DNA of 64,000 nt, from assembly GCF_032854445.1 (NCBI RefSeq), contig NC_088295.1:65639249-65703248 (forward strand), in the 5' to 3' direction. A program made the translations under genes and the position numbers. The notes under the pieces were generated by a model. The model was not told where the DNA came from and made no database searches. It saw only the letters and a list, made by a program, of their open reading frames with translations. Position 1 is the first letter of the stretch, and each line of letters begins with the position of its first letter. Below, piece after piece: positions 62,301 through 63,770 of the stretch. The DNA comes from Liolophura sinensis (taxonomy: Eukaryota; Mollusca; Polyplacophora; Chitonida; Chitonidae).

Positions 62301-63770
62301 ACATTAATTATGCACATTATGCATAGACACAACAAGCACACAACACAACATGAAAATTGAAAACTTGAAATTAATCCGAGGTCTGTGTTAAATTGTCAGA
62401 AGTAATCCAACGCTGTTCCTGTTTGTTTTTGTTTCAGACATCCATGCAGTCCAGTTTGTTCAGGAGGCGTTTAGGAATCAGAGCAGCTTATGAAGTGTTG
62501 CGACAGAGGAAGACTTCCTTCAGGCATTGCTCCAGCCTTAACACCACCAGGTAAATCGTAACTCCAGCCTTAACACCACCAGGTAAATCATAACTCCAGC
62601 CTTAACACCACCAGGTAAATCATAACTCCAGCCTTAACACCACCAGGTAAATCATAACTCCAGCCTTAACACCACCAGGTAAATCATTTCGAGTAACATA
62701 TGAGGTAAAGCATTACTATACTCAGGCATAAACACCAGCAGATGATGGATTACTCTAGCATTAGCACCACCAGGTGATGGATTACTCCAGCATTAACACC
62801 ACTAGGTGATAGTTTACTCCAGCATGAACACCACTAGGTGATAGTTTACTCCAGCATTAACACCACCAGGTGATAGATTACTCCAGCATTAACACCACCA
62901 GGTGATAGATTACTCCCGCATTAACACCACTAGGTGATAGATTACTCCAGCATTAACACCACCAGGTGATAGATTACTCCCGCATTAACACCACCAGGTG
63001 ATAGATTACTCCCGCATTAACACCACTAGGTGATAGATTATTCCAGCATTGACACCACTAGGCGATAGATTACTCCAGCATTGACACTACCAGGCACTCT
63101 GGTTTCTCATAAATCTGACCCATAACCACAAAAGTTTTTGAGCATAACATTTAAATAAAATACTTTAATAAGTTTAAAGCATGTTCCAGTTTGTGAAATA
63201 ATGTAACCAAATTCAAACATGATCATGTATTTTACTTTTTACTGATAACAACCATCTCCTGATATTTACTTGTTTGATATTTTATCCTGTATTCCCATGG
63301 TATTTGCAGAGAAGGTGTAGAAAGCTTGTGGTTGAGACATGTGGTAGAAGGGGCAGACCTGGAGCCTACAGCCAAATTAGCCATATTACAGGTATCTTAA
63401 TACAGTTTATCAAGTAATGGTTGGAGGTGTGATCAAGATGTATAAAGTTATACTACAATTTTTAGACGTCTAAAAAACTGAAAAAAAAAGGAAATCAGCT
63501 AAGCAAAATTTTATATCTTGGATTGCAGTAAAGCCATTTAACATATTCCTCTAAATATGGGAGGGTCTGAATTCAGTGATGTACTTGCCAGATTTCTGAT
63601 TTTTTTTTAAGTGCATGTTTCTTTAGTTATTAATATTACAATAGATTTCTGTCGTAACATACTTTTGTTTTGGTTGTTAGGACCTGGACTCCAGACAAGG
63701 ATGTCTGTTAAATGCAGCTCAGTTTCAGGGTGTCTTTTCTGTGTTAGATAAAGACTTAACCAACAGGGAG
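44015..63770 (+). CDS. TPCN2: Two-pore channel 2 (TPC2), 5' 14 exons; gene runs off the window
   Basis: Endolysosomal Na+/Ca2+ channel of the voltage-gated superfamily, gated by PI(3,5)P2 and by NAADP via accessory proteins. Exons: 44,015-44,309; 46,291-46,340; 46,934-47,010; 48,196-48,373; 54,736-54,852; 55,464-55,570; 56,023-56,095; 57,676-57,774; 58,635-58,722; 61,216-61,281; 61,797-61,861; 62,438-62,550; 63,310-63,391; 63,681-63,770. All join in phase, 1,500 nt, 500 residues. Domain I is complete: S1 ~141-163, S4 [13 protein letters not shown] ~241-253, filter [10 protein letters not shown] ~353-362, S6 with [14 protein letters not shown] ~392-405. [16 protein letters not shown] matches human [16 protein letters not shown] and favours TPC2 over TPC1/TPC3. 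An in-frame TGA at 43,991 supports the start. A DPPLL motif near the N-terminus recalls the lysosomal dileucine signal. Domain II is not in the window. Confidence 0.96.
44310..46290. other. TPCN2 intron 1
   Basis: AT-rich intron with a strong hairpin at 44,532-44,599 and no other recognised feature. Confidence 0.6.
44532..44599 (+). other. Strong hairpin (30-bp arms, 8-nt loop) in TPCN2 intron 1
   Basis: TGTGGCGATATGTGACAATC... pairs with ...TTGTCAAATATTGCCACA: 27 of 30 positions are complementary, and two mismatches become G-U pairs in one RNA strand. A third, more diverged copy of the arm follows at about 44,610-44,648. It could be a MITE remnant or a pre-miRNA-like stem; no conserved miRNA seed is recognised. 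Confidence 0.6.
46291..46340 (+). CDS. TPCN2: TPCN2 exon 2
   Basis: Acceptor TACTCTGTAG. Encodes [16 protein letters not shown] after a split Asp codon (human QAVVFIEDAIQ). Donor ACA/GTAAGT. Confidence 0.94.
46426..46472. repeat. (TA)n microsatellite
   Basis: About 22 uninterrupted AT dinucleotides in TPCN2 intron 2, just left of the first MITE copy. Confidence 0.95.
46481..46684. mobile_element. MITE-like family, copy 1 (TPCN2 intron 2)
   Basis: Ends CTTCAACCCTTTTGCA and TGTGAAAGGGTTGAAG form a 12-bp perfect terminal inverted repeat. Internal blocks ATTCTGAAGGCATGATTGTG and GCACTGAAAGTTGCTCTTTT are shared with the copies at 47.6, 56.4 and 60.7 kb. Confidence 0.75.
46934..47010 (+). CDS. 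TPCN2: TPCN2 exon 3
   Basis: Acceptor TTAACAG. Encodes [20 protein letters not shown] through PVR, with the next Trp codon split (human [20 protein letters not shown]). Donor TG/GTGAGT. Confidence 0.95.
47168..47211. repeat. (TTTAG)n-type low-complexity repeat
   Basis: Irregular tandem TTTAG/TTTTAG copies in TPCN2 intron 3. Confidence 0.85.
47631..47855. mobile_element. MITE-like family, copy 2 (TPCN2 intron 3)
   Basis: CTAATTCTTCAGCTTTTTG at the left, GCGAAAAGGTTCAGGAATTAG at the right, and internal CATATTCTGAGGGCATTATT and TGCACTGAAATTTGCTCTTT. Confidence 0.75.
48196..48373 (+). CDS. TPCN2: TPCN2 exon 4 (S1 and S2)
   Basis: Acceptor TTTCTAG. Encodes [20 protein letters not shown] through [32 protein letters not shown] matches human FIETPSSLT. 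Donor AAA/GTGAGT. Confidence 0.97.
48475..54690. repeat. 6.2-kb array of a 23-bp minisatellite (TPCN2 intron 4)
   Basis: About 270 tandem copies of CCAGCAGATCACAATACCCA plus TAA, with recurrent variants (ATATCC/ATAACC, GATGAC/GATCAC, TAGATGGC). It fills almost the whole 6.36-kb intron, ending 45 bp before exon 5. The minus strand lacks stops in most units in all frames, so it shows a string of ORFs with a 23-residue period; these are by-products. Longer-range repeats of 207-230 bp and about 1.9-2.0 kb are also visible. Confidence 0.97.
54736..54852 (+). CDS. TPCN2: TPCN2 exon 5 (S3)
   Basis: Acceptor GCTCTCCAG. Encodes [20 protein letters not shown] through [16 protein letters not shown] (human LVDWTVSLSLVCHE). 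Donor GAG/GTGAGC. Confidence 0.97.
55241..55332 (+). mobile_element. SINE fragment (TPCN2 intron 5)
   Basis: GTTGTAAGTCCAGCTCATGTTGG and CTTCCTCTCCTGTCATATGTGGG match the B-box and body of the family; both ends are missing. Confidence 0.65.
55464..55570 (+). CDS. TPCN2: TPCN2 exon 6 (S4 and S4-S5 linker)
   Basis: Acceptor GATTACAG. Encodes [20 protein letters not shown] then [15 protein letters not shown]. It carries the domain I S4 arginines and the Lys-Lys pair that in human TPC2 contacts PI(3,5)P2. Donor AG/GTGAGC. Confidence 0.97.
56023..56095 (+). CDS. TPCN2: TPCN2 exon 7 (S5)
   Basis: Acceptor TTGTTTTCAG. Encodes [24 protein letters not shown] after a split Ser codon. Donor AAA/GTAAGC. 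Confidence 0.96.
56354..56564. mobile_element. MITE-like family, copy 3 (TPCN2 intron 7, reversed)
   Basis: CTAATTCCTCCACGTTTTTGC and AAAGAGCAACTTTCAGAGCA, then CCTTCAGAATATGCTTG and CTTGCAAACG, in the opposite orientation to the other copies. Confidence 0.7.
57676..57774 (+). CDS. TPCN2: TPCN2 exon 8 (S5-pore loop)
   Basis: Acceptor GACTTTTCCAG. Encodes [20 protein letters not shown] through NESTLKPP. Two N-glycosylation sequons (NVS, NES) face the lumen if topology follows the family. Human TPC2 has a shorter loop here. Donor CCG/GTAAGT. Confidence 0.93.
57790..57987. mobile_element. MITE-like palindromic-ended element (TPCN2 intron 8)
   Basis: GGGGTCAGATTCACGAAGCC at the left and GCCTGGTGAATCAGGGCCCC at the right are imperfect inverted repeats, in the style of the element at 20.45 kb. 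Confidence 0.55.
58635..58722 (+). CDS. TPCN2: TPCN2 exon 9 (pore helix and filter I)
   Basis: Acceptor CTGTTTTTAG. Encodes [20 protein letters not shown] then LLTTANNPD. The filter TAN is identical to human. Donor GATG/GTAAGG. Confidence 0.97.
58730..60540. repeat. 237/137-bp mosaic tandem array (TPCN2 intron 9)
   Basis: Successive GTGATGAAAGTTTTACTG boxes at 59,021, 59,258, 59,495 and 59,732 are 237 bp apart. From there the spacing drops to 136-137 bp (59,868; 60,005; 60,142; 60,279), then a long unit returns. Short units lack the ~100-bp block containing ATAGATGTCATTTGGAAAG. The first, diverged unit begins about 7 bp after the exon 9 boundary. Confidence 0.93.
60711..60878. mobile_element. 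MITE-like family, copy 4 (TPCN2 intron 9)
   Basis: GCATATTCTGAGGGCATTGTT, GGGCTGAAAGTTGCTCTTTT and terminal GCGAAAAGGTTGAGGAATTAG, as in copies 1 and 2; the left end is degraded. Confidence 0.7.
61216..61281 (+). CDS. TPCN2: TPCN2 exon 10 (post-filter, S6 start)
   Basis: Acceptor GTCTCACAG. Encodes [21 protein letters not shown] between split Val and Gly codons (human [21 protein letters not shown]). Donor G/GTGAGT. Confidence 0.96.
61575..61645 (+). other. Possible tRNA-derived fragment
   Basis: GGGCTGGCTTAGTGCAAC and ATGTTTGAACCCTGCTCAC are spaced like A and B boxes. No full cloverleaf; in TPCN2 intron 10. Confidence 0.3.
61797..61861 (+). CDS. TPCN2: TPCN2 exon 11 (S6)
   Basis: Acceptor CTTCCCCAG. 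Encodes [21 protein letters not shown], with the conserved Thr and Tyr that line the human IS6 gate. Donor CTG/GTGAGT. Confidence 0.97.
62438..62550 (+). CDS. TPCN2: TPCN2 exon 12 (start of inter-domain linker)
   Basis: Acceptor TTGTTTCAG. Encodes [20 protein letters not shown] through HCSSLNTT. The donor CCAG/GTAAAT at 62,551 is the first of five tandem copies; only this one keeps the frame, because reading through gives AGG TAA. Confidence 0.95.
62528..63100. repeat. 32-bp array derived from the exon 12 / intron 12 junction
   Basis: The first five units, ACTCCAGCCTTAACACCACC then AGGTAAATCATA, include the last ~22 bp of exon 12 and its 5' splice site. After a gap at about 62,690-62,740 come 11-12 more diverged 32-bp units (ACTCCAGCATTAACACCACC then AGGTGATAGATT), all with AGGTGA at the old donor position. 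Confidence 0.92.
63310..63391 (+). CDS. TPCN2: TPCN2 exon 13
   Basis: Acceptor GTATTTGCAG. Encodes [27 protein letters not shown] after a split Arg codon; cytosolic linker. Donor CAG/GTATCT. Confidence 0.88.
63681..63770 (+). CDS. TPCN2: TPCN2 exon 14 (last in the window)
   Basis: Acceptor TGGTTGTTAG. Encodes [46 protein letters not shown] matches human LSAEEFQKLFNELDRS. Donor GAG/GTGAGT; the next exon is beyond 64,000. Confidence 0.92.

Follow-up and report, generated by a model that had tools for sequence, protein, structure and literature searches.

A minisatellite across the end of a TPCN2 coding exon in the chiton Liolophura sinensis, with similar arrays at other exon junctions

The DNA analysed here is a stretch of 64,000 nucleotides (nt) from the chiton Liolophura sinensis (NCBI RefSeq assembly GCF_032854445.1, contig NC_088295.1, positions 65,639,249 to 65,703,248 of the forward strand), referred to below as the window, with positions counted from its first letter. 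It carries exons of the gene TPCN2, one of which ends within a tandem array whose unit takes in both the end of the exon and its 5' splice site (donor). Such minisatellite-like repeats spanning an exon/intron boundary are called mirages; they were named in the amphioxus gene Adh3 and described in the amphioxus globins BflGb6 and BflGb9 (PMC3087553), and the name is also reported for PGBD5 and troponin C, with an account of PGBD5 in PMC3902484. The TPCN2 array is a mirage. The features of the locus are as follows, where a slash marks a splice junction and PWM stands for the score of a donor position weight matrix.

62438..62550, forward strand: TPCN2 coding exon after IS6, in the domain I-II linker; phase 0 to phase 2, ending ...SLNTTR(AG/); open frame and TPC2 homology.
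62526..63094, forward strand: the whole 32-bp tandem array, about 17.8 copies, starting within the exon; Tandem Repeats Finder (TRF) and 14 of 14 genome-wide pattern matches.
62530..62550, forward strand: the 21 nt of copy 1 that lie in the exon, matched exactly in copies 2-5.
62551..62556, forward strand: donor 1, CAG/GTAAAT, the sole one of five with an open frame into the next exon.
62583..62684, forward strand: donors 2-5 (62583, 62615, 62647, 62679), with the same 9-mer as donor 1.
62680..62741, forward strand: degenerate copies separating two subfamilies, with GAG/GTAAAG at 62705.
62742..63094, forward strand: diverged copies (B subfamily) with nine GTGATR donor-like sites; PWM 1.5-3.3, U1 duplex energy -6.6 to -8.2.
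63310..63391, forward strand: next TPCN2 exon, acceptor tttgcag/AGAAGG.

The exon that runs into the array is 113 nt long, and its end, called from the reading frame together with the splice signals, joins AG/A to the following exon. The peptide encoded by this exon and the next two matches the TPC2 chains 8ouo (322-408) and 6nq0 (326-412) with an E-value of 9.8e-07, which bears out the assignment to TPCN2 made in an earlier reading of the sequence only. When a human TPC2 sequence was used as the query, the other exons were found in order between about 46.3 and 73.2 kb, across the window and its continuation, with the exception of one weak match (E 1.7) that contains a stop; the array exon, numbered 12 in the earlier reading, is the tenth in this partial map. 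SLNTTR, the exon end that is repeated, sits in a variable linker of TPC2. The window gave no Rfam match at gathering scores.

The array covers about 570 bp and consists of two subfamilies of copies, here called A and B. In the five A copies, 28 bases (CTCCAGCCTTAACACCACCAGGTAAATC) are identical in all five, and so is CAG/GTAAAT, with donors at 62551, 62583, 62615, 62647 and 62679; the 32-bp repetition of exon end and donor GTAAAT and the up to five identical donors described in the sequence-only reading are thus real, the exonic part measuring 21 nt. A degenerate block at about 62680-62741 contributes one further donor-like site (at 62705) and is followed by 12 B copies. The earlier description of five near-identical copies followed by about a dozen diverged ones therefore stands. 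Of the changed donor hexamer, given there as GTGATA, the form GTGATR is present in 9/12, and the remaining three carry ATGATG, GCGATA and GCACTC in the donor position. Copy identity amounts to 0.98 among A copies, 0.93 among B copies and 0.76 between the two. Of the seven differences between the A and B consensus, five lie among the ten bases that open the intron (Fisher p 0.019), so that the older B copies may be weaker decoys; alternatively, a single founder copy may have carried the pattern by chance.

The unit is private to this locus. A pattern search of the whole genome with up to 3 mismatches returned 14 matches on the forward strand, all of them in the array, and none on the reverse strand; the reversed-pattern control gave no match genome-wide, and DNA searches with the A and B units, which skip very common words, matched this locus only. 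A dispersed repeat family is ruled out by these searches. It is a different question whether the array could be an artefact of the assembly or a collapsed or expanded repeat. Arrays are hard to assemble, and the published chiton assembly is reported to rest on high-fidelity (HiFi) reads at a coverage of 14x, with haplotypic duplications purged (PMC11068029), one haplotype being analysed here. An artefact is nevertheless unlikely because the mean HiFi read length, given as 8,347 bp in the same report, far exceeds the 570 bp of the array; in addition, the copies differ from each other in an ordered manner and several unrelated loci show an equal pattern (see below), and we regard this explanation as extremely improbable. 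The assembly was published as Liolophura japonica (PMC11068029) and the species was later corrected to L. sinensis (PMC12441733). Eight consecutive matches to the haemocyanin beta-sandwich, a molluscan family, agree with such a host; a lancelet GFP query found nothing, a result of little weight by itself.

Two other introns of TPCN2 hold arrays of their own. A 23-bp satellite of about 270 copies (48473-54690, two TRF rows) nearly fills the intron between the donor at 48374 and the exon at 54739, and an array with 137/237-bp units lies at 58723-60424, its unit resembling the intron from about +7 of the donor. The 237-bp array of this intron (58723-61212) was considered as a second donor-spanning array and rejected, as the match is to the intron from about +7 (score 74 against a shuffled maximum of 29), and the match to the exon end scores 20, below that maximum.

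Every structural feature of mirages that was tested is present in the TPCN2 array, namely head-to-tail repeats, a unit that spans the boundary (first copy 62530-62556), splice signals within the copies and a private unit, the last being a criterion added here and absent from the mirage papers. In amphioxus, the reported units measure 10-72 bp in Adh3 and 150-160 bp in the globins, many of them keep the AG/GT signals (PMC3087553; PMC3902484), both 5' and 3' boundaries are affected, and BflGb6 has 6 units in one haplotype and 3 in another (PMC3087553). The chiton arrays share with them the tandem units across 5' or 3' boundaries and a unit length that depends on the locus. They differ in that the reported range is confined to cephalochordates, whereas the present host is a mollusc with at least 40 donors in one array and a first rough estimate of frequency, and in that splicing and somatic instability of the amphioxus mirages were studied by experiment, whereas the chiton arrays are known here from sequence alone. 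No mollusc mirage was found in the open-licence literature searched.

The donors of the array were compared with those of the host gene, using a PWM built from human frequencies with which 19/20 mapped gene donors, donor 1 included, were scored. CAG/GTAAAT reaches a PWM of 5.3, close to the median of 5.2 for the 19 gene donors, and 15 donor-like sites with a PWM above 1 span 62551-63030. The U1 duplex energy is -8.3 for the A donors, -8.2 for the B donors of CAG type and -6.6 for those of TAG type, compared with a gene median of -8.5. Predicted accessibility lies at 0.001-0.013 in the five A donors and between 5e-6 and 5e-5 in the nine B sites; the remaining 19 gene donors have a median of 0.0005 and extend from 7e-7 to 0.019, so the low values of the B sites are not exceptional within TPCN2, where other donors reach 7e-7. 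As a side observation, the B donors at 62774-63030 are predicted to be about 100x less accessible than the A donors, and GGTG/CACC pairing between units, noticed by eye, could be the cause.

As had been predicted from the sequence, a TAA follows directly past the normal junction (AGG TAA) and would truncate the channel after domain I: donors 2 to 6 each yield one and the same protein ending ...SLNTTR and a stop, the predicted product comprising domain I and part of the linker, and there is no open frame across the copies for the later donors. The stop arises because any intron of phase 2 that opens with GTAA or GTGA necessarily gives xxG TAA or xxG TGA, and the other three such introns in the TPCN2 map (donors 47011, 55571 and 73201) also stop at +4, making it 4/4 in all. 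The earlier suggestion that the stop is a special device, a switch towards a domain-I isoform, finds no support in the sequence. A regulatory switch by which certain tissues turn to the later donors to lower TPC2 or to make a domain-I-only protein could appeal to five identical donors of average PWM for the gene and to the identical truncated product. However, a stop that comes automatically with such introns requires no special explanation, the same arrangement is found at unrelated genes and at acceptors, so that no gene-specific purpose is needed, and regular splicing is reported for the mirages of amphioxus (PMC3087553); such a switch therefore appears very unlikely.

Similar arrays are present at the junctions of other genes. 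Four were found in addition to those of the survey described further below, three of which are listed here with the handles of their loci and the contig C1.

L011, about 1350-1540, reverse strand: TPC1-like junction array; exon end GTTTTATAACATCTATGACATGAACAGTCTCCAGTGGAAG, donor GTAATTTGGTATA, about 5 copies, the first and last of full length and the middle ones shortened.
L017, C1:4178060-4179799, reverse strand: BTAF1/Mot1 junction array; ...DYYCDLSPLQ/GTGAGT, 48-bp unit, several CAG/GTGAGT copies.
L023, C1:5471572-5473618, forward strand: CIAO3-like junction array; ...HFVEVMACPS/GTGAGT, 40-bp unit, about 2 kb.

In the TPC1-like gene, the exon end ...NSLQWK/GTAATTTGG is repeated about 5x (self-match score 51); the array exon has a weak match to the TPC1 linker (E 0.015), and a better match (E 3.6e-5) lies upstream of it on that strand. 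The TPC1 intron was also considered as a guide to the ancestral end of the TPCN2 exon; it is of phase 0 and lies, by eye, a few codons upstream, and it does not decide the matter. The BTAF1/Mot1 exon matches a 'helicase-like protein' (E 1.8e-18), which we take to be fungal Mot1. The exon of the third gene, presumably CIAO3-like, matches the Pfam iron-only hydrogenase domain (E 1.8e-12) and shares FVEVMACP with an electron-bifurcating hydrogenase, and its array contains at least 40 CAG/GTGAGT donors, many of them together with codons of the conserved VEVMACPS. At an alpha-L-fucosidase exon (E 2.5e-11) the array starts at the junction, and its unit holds only the last few exonic bases.

In order to obtain a rough frequency, 58 exons were surveyed with 450-bp flanks, consisting of 40/138 kinase matches, hand-picked and mostly short open frames, and 18/19 ABC-transporter matches. 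Splice sites were chosen by a simple score, a PWM of 2 being reached by 45/58 donor picks, and a 30-base window at each junction was compared with its own flanks. Local repetition was found in 3/58 donor windows, 2/58 acceptor windows and 0/58 mid-exon windows. The acceptor score of 29 at L064 was set aside, the picked acceptor not being the real one, and arrays near a donor that do not cross it (for example at L078) were left out of the count. The names of the kinases and of the ABCG-type transporter below are presumed from their motifs.

L064: receptor tyrosine kinase (RTK) donor array; ...WSFGILLWETVTMG/GTGAGT, 67 bp x 6.5.
L069: GRK/AGC-type kinase donor array; ...VVYRDLK/GTATGC, 65 bp x 5.3.
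L104: ABCG-type transporter, donor at 663; ...FFDEPT, two copies only.
L057/L058 set: AGC kinase acceptor array; CTGTAACAG/AGATCTTAAG, 37 bp x 8.8.
L057/L058 set: acceptor array of a PAS-kinase-like gene; 80 bp x 6.2.

At L104 the second donor, GTAAGA, looks nearer to the consensus than the first, GTAACT, and the locus is a possible newborn mirage. Since acceptors are repeated too, junction arrays as a speciality of donors are ruled out. The first 30 kinase loci, mostly long open frames, lie outside the survey count except for L035 (= L093); they showed no array at the match ends, and one 15-bp repeat inside a match. TRF coverage on the donor side is 7-12% in the intron beyond 30 nt, 3.6% over the ten bases that open the intron, 2.7% over the ten that close the exon and 1.0% at exon positions 21-45 bases from the junction, and the acceptor side gives 5-10%, 3.6%, 3.6% and 0.9% in the same order. 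This suggests a depletion of arrays at junctions, though not a significant one, the coverage there corresponding to about 2/56 loci. Introns of this genome seem to acquire tandem duplications readily, and their junctions are not spared.

The reading frame behaves alike across these loci. For the later donors of seven arrays (TPC2, TPC1, BTAF1, CIAO3-like, RTK, GRK and ABCG; the alpha-L-fucosidase array was left out of this count), an in-frame stop follows in 35/37, and the remaining 2/37, donor 2 of TPC1 (+32 nt) and donor 2 of CIAO3-like (+40 nt), shift the frame; for the earlier acceptors of the two acceptor arrays the result is a stop in 12/13 and a frame shift in 1/13 (80 nt). In the acceptor arrays L057 and L058, the copy in frame is the last one. 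As the later donors and earlier acceptors followed here give a stop or a frame shift, only the first donor or the last acceptor would preserve the conserved protein. These would be the pair of sites nearest to each other across the exon, as exon definition predicts, and the opposite of a choice of the sites nearest across the intron.

We therefore consider the TPCN2 mirage to be probably a tolerated by-product, in which donor 1 is used by exon definition. A short tandem duplication would have taken in approximately the last 21 nt of the exon together with its donor, after which unequal exchange or slippage may have multiplied and homogenised the unit, copies 2-5 looking recent and the B copies older. 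All copies past the first sit in the intron and would be removed with it. The spliceosome would pair the acceptor of the exon with the nearest downstream donor, giving the shortest exon and hence donor 1, and transcripts from donors 2-5 would stop at once and be expected to be lost by nonsense-mediated decay. The array would then be tolerated, perhaps at a small cost in mRNA that depends on the copy number. According to the amphioxus report, Adh3 data and reverse transcription PCR of the globins suggest that regular splicing is undisturbed (PMC3087553), and tandem duplication of a segment that contains AGGT or crosses a boundary is described as supplying ready splice signals (PMC4974935; PMC3087553).

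Several points weigh against this explanation. Donors 2-5 have the same 9-mer and a similar predicted accessibility as donor 1, so that the local sequence contains no preference for donor 1, and the B donors of CAG type nearly equal it in U1 duplex energy (-8.2 vs -8.3). Five identical copies could also be the result of selection for extra donors. Finally, the difference between 5/116 junctions and 0/58 mid-exon windows in the survey is not significant on its own (p 0.17), and the rate is a rough one.

The order of events may also have been the reverse, with an intron minisatellite that captured the exon end. The older exon would have ended in TTCAG (62523), and a loss of 5 bases in the first copy would have removed the older donor and its stop, moved the exon end by 27 nt and added nine codons (HCSSLNTTR). 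This is consistent with the sequence TTCAGG-CATTG upstream of copy 1, which by eye fits the unit CAGG(TAAAx)CATTA minus five bases, with TTC AG/ being likewise of phase 2 and 32-5=27 preserving the frame, and with unit position 10, which is T in the flank of copy 1, in the degenerate copies and in the B consensus, and A in copies 2-5. However, the exon upstream of CAGG is by eye unlike the unit, and the match of about nine bases could be due to chance. At BTAF1, CIAO3-like and RTK, moreover, the coding stretch within the unit belongs to conserved protein, which places the junction before the array. We consider an origin from the array rather unlikely for TPCN2. The claim of the sequence-only reading that a working junction seeds the array holds elsewhere in the genome (DYYCDLSPLQ of BTAF1, VEVMACPS of the CIAO3-like gene), and for TPCN2, where the linker is variable, we infer the same order of events.

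Boundary-spanning repeats have been connected with the origin of introns, and the amphioxus report names mirages as a possible source of new introns (PMC3087553). The TPCN2 array shares the boundary-crossing duplication with intron gain by tandem duplication, but it has no evident new intron, its extra copies lying in the old one. In human segmental duplications, internal tandem repeats with units averaging 30 bp are reported, some of them at exon-intron boundaries (PMC2812944); these are described as modifying exons or forming new introns in recent paralogs, whereas the chiton arrays appear to keep the frame of conserved exons. In the open-licence literature, boundary minisatellites are so far described from a handful of amphioxus genes (PMC3087553; PMC3902484). 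Their occurrence in a mollusc, at conserved genes and at roughly 4% of the sampled junctions, suggests that tandem duplication produces them generally in genomes rich in minisatellites and that they are not a chordate oddity. We tentatively propose, as a possibility short of an even chance, that mirages are pervasive in this mollusc genome (about 4% of exon junctions), that the outermost copy is needed, that position alone sets the choice and that the copy number tunes the amount of productive mRNA. Each array represents a natural competition of identical splice sites in a near-identical context, in which position alone differs, and on which the rules of exon and intron definition are testable; the arrays also provide ready starting material for gaining introns and shifting exon boundaries.

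A pattern of consensus-donor pairs, consisting of two CAGGTRAGT words 11-41 bases apart, was searched in the genome and gave 1451 matches. The reversed pattern gave 329, a swapped word 327 and the swapped word reversed 385. CAGGTRAGT as a single word is itself 2.6x commoner than its reversal (19,904 vs 7,585), and the excess of pairs is about 1.7x what word abundance alone predicts, matches within one array not being independent. A seeding mechanism directed by splicing is unsupported, as word abundance explains most of the pair excess and array coverage does not rise at junctions. Among the matches listed, the donor pairs in the first 5.5 Mb of C1 form 11 clusters, compared with 3 for the swapped word; 3/11 start from exons that have known relatives (BTAF1, CIAO3-like and alpha-L-fucosidase), contact with an exon not being demonstrated for the other 8. 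The approximately 100 matches listed of the 1451 donor pairs all lie in these first 5.5 Mb, which make up less than 1% of the genome, and the arrays look clustered there. C5:13465676-13476590 and C8:30110489-30225929 hold clusters of similar kinase-domain open frames, mostly of about 757 aa and 396 aa.

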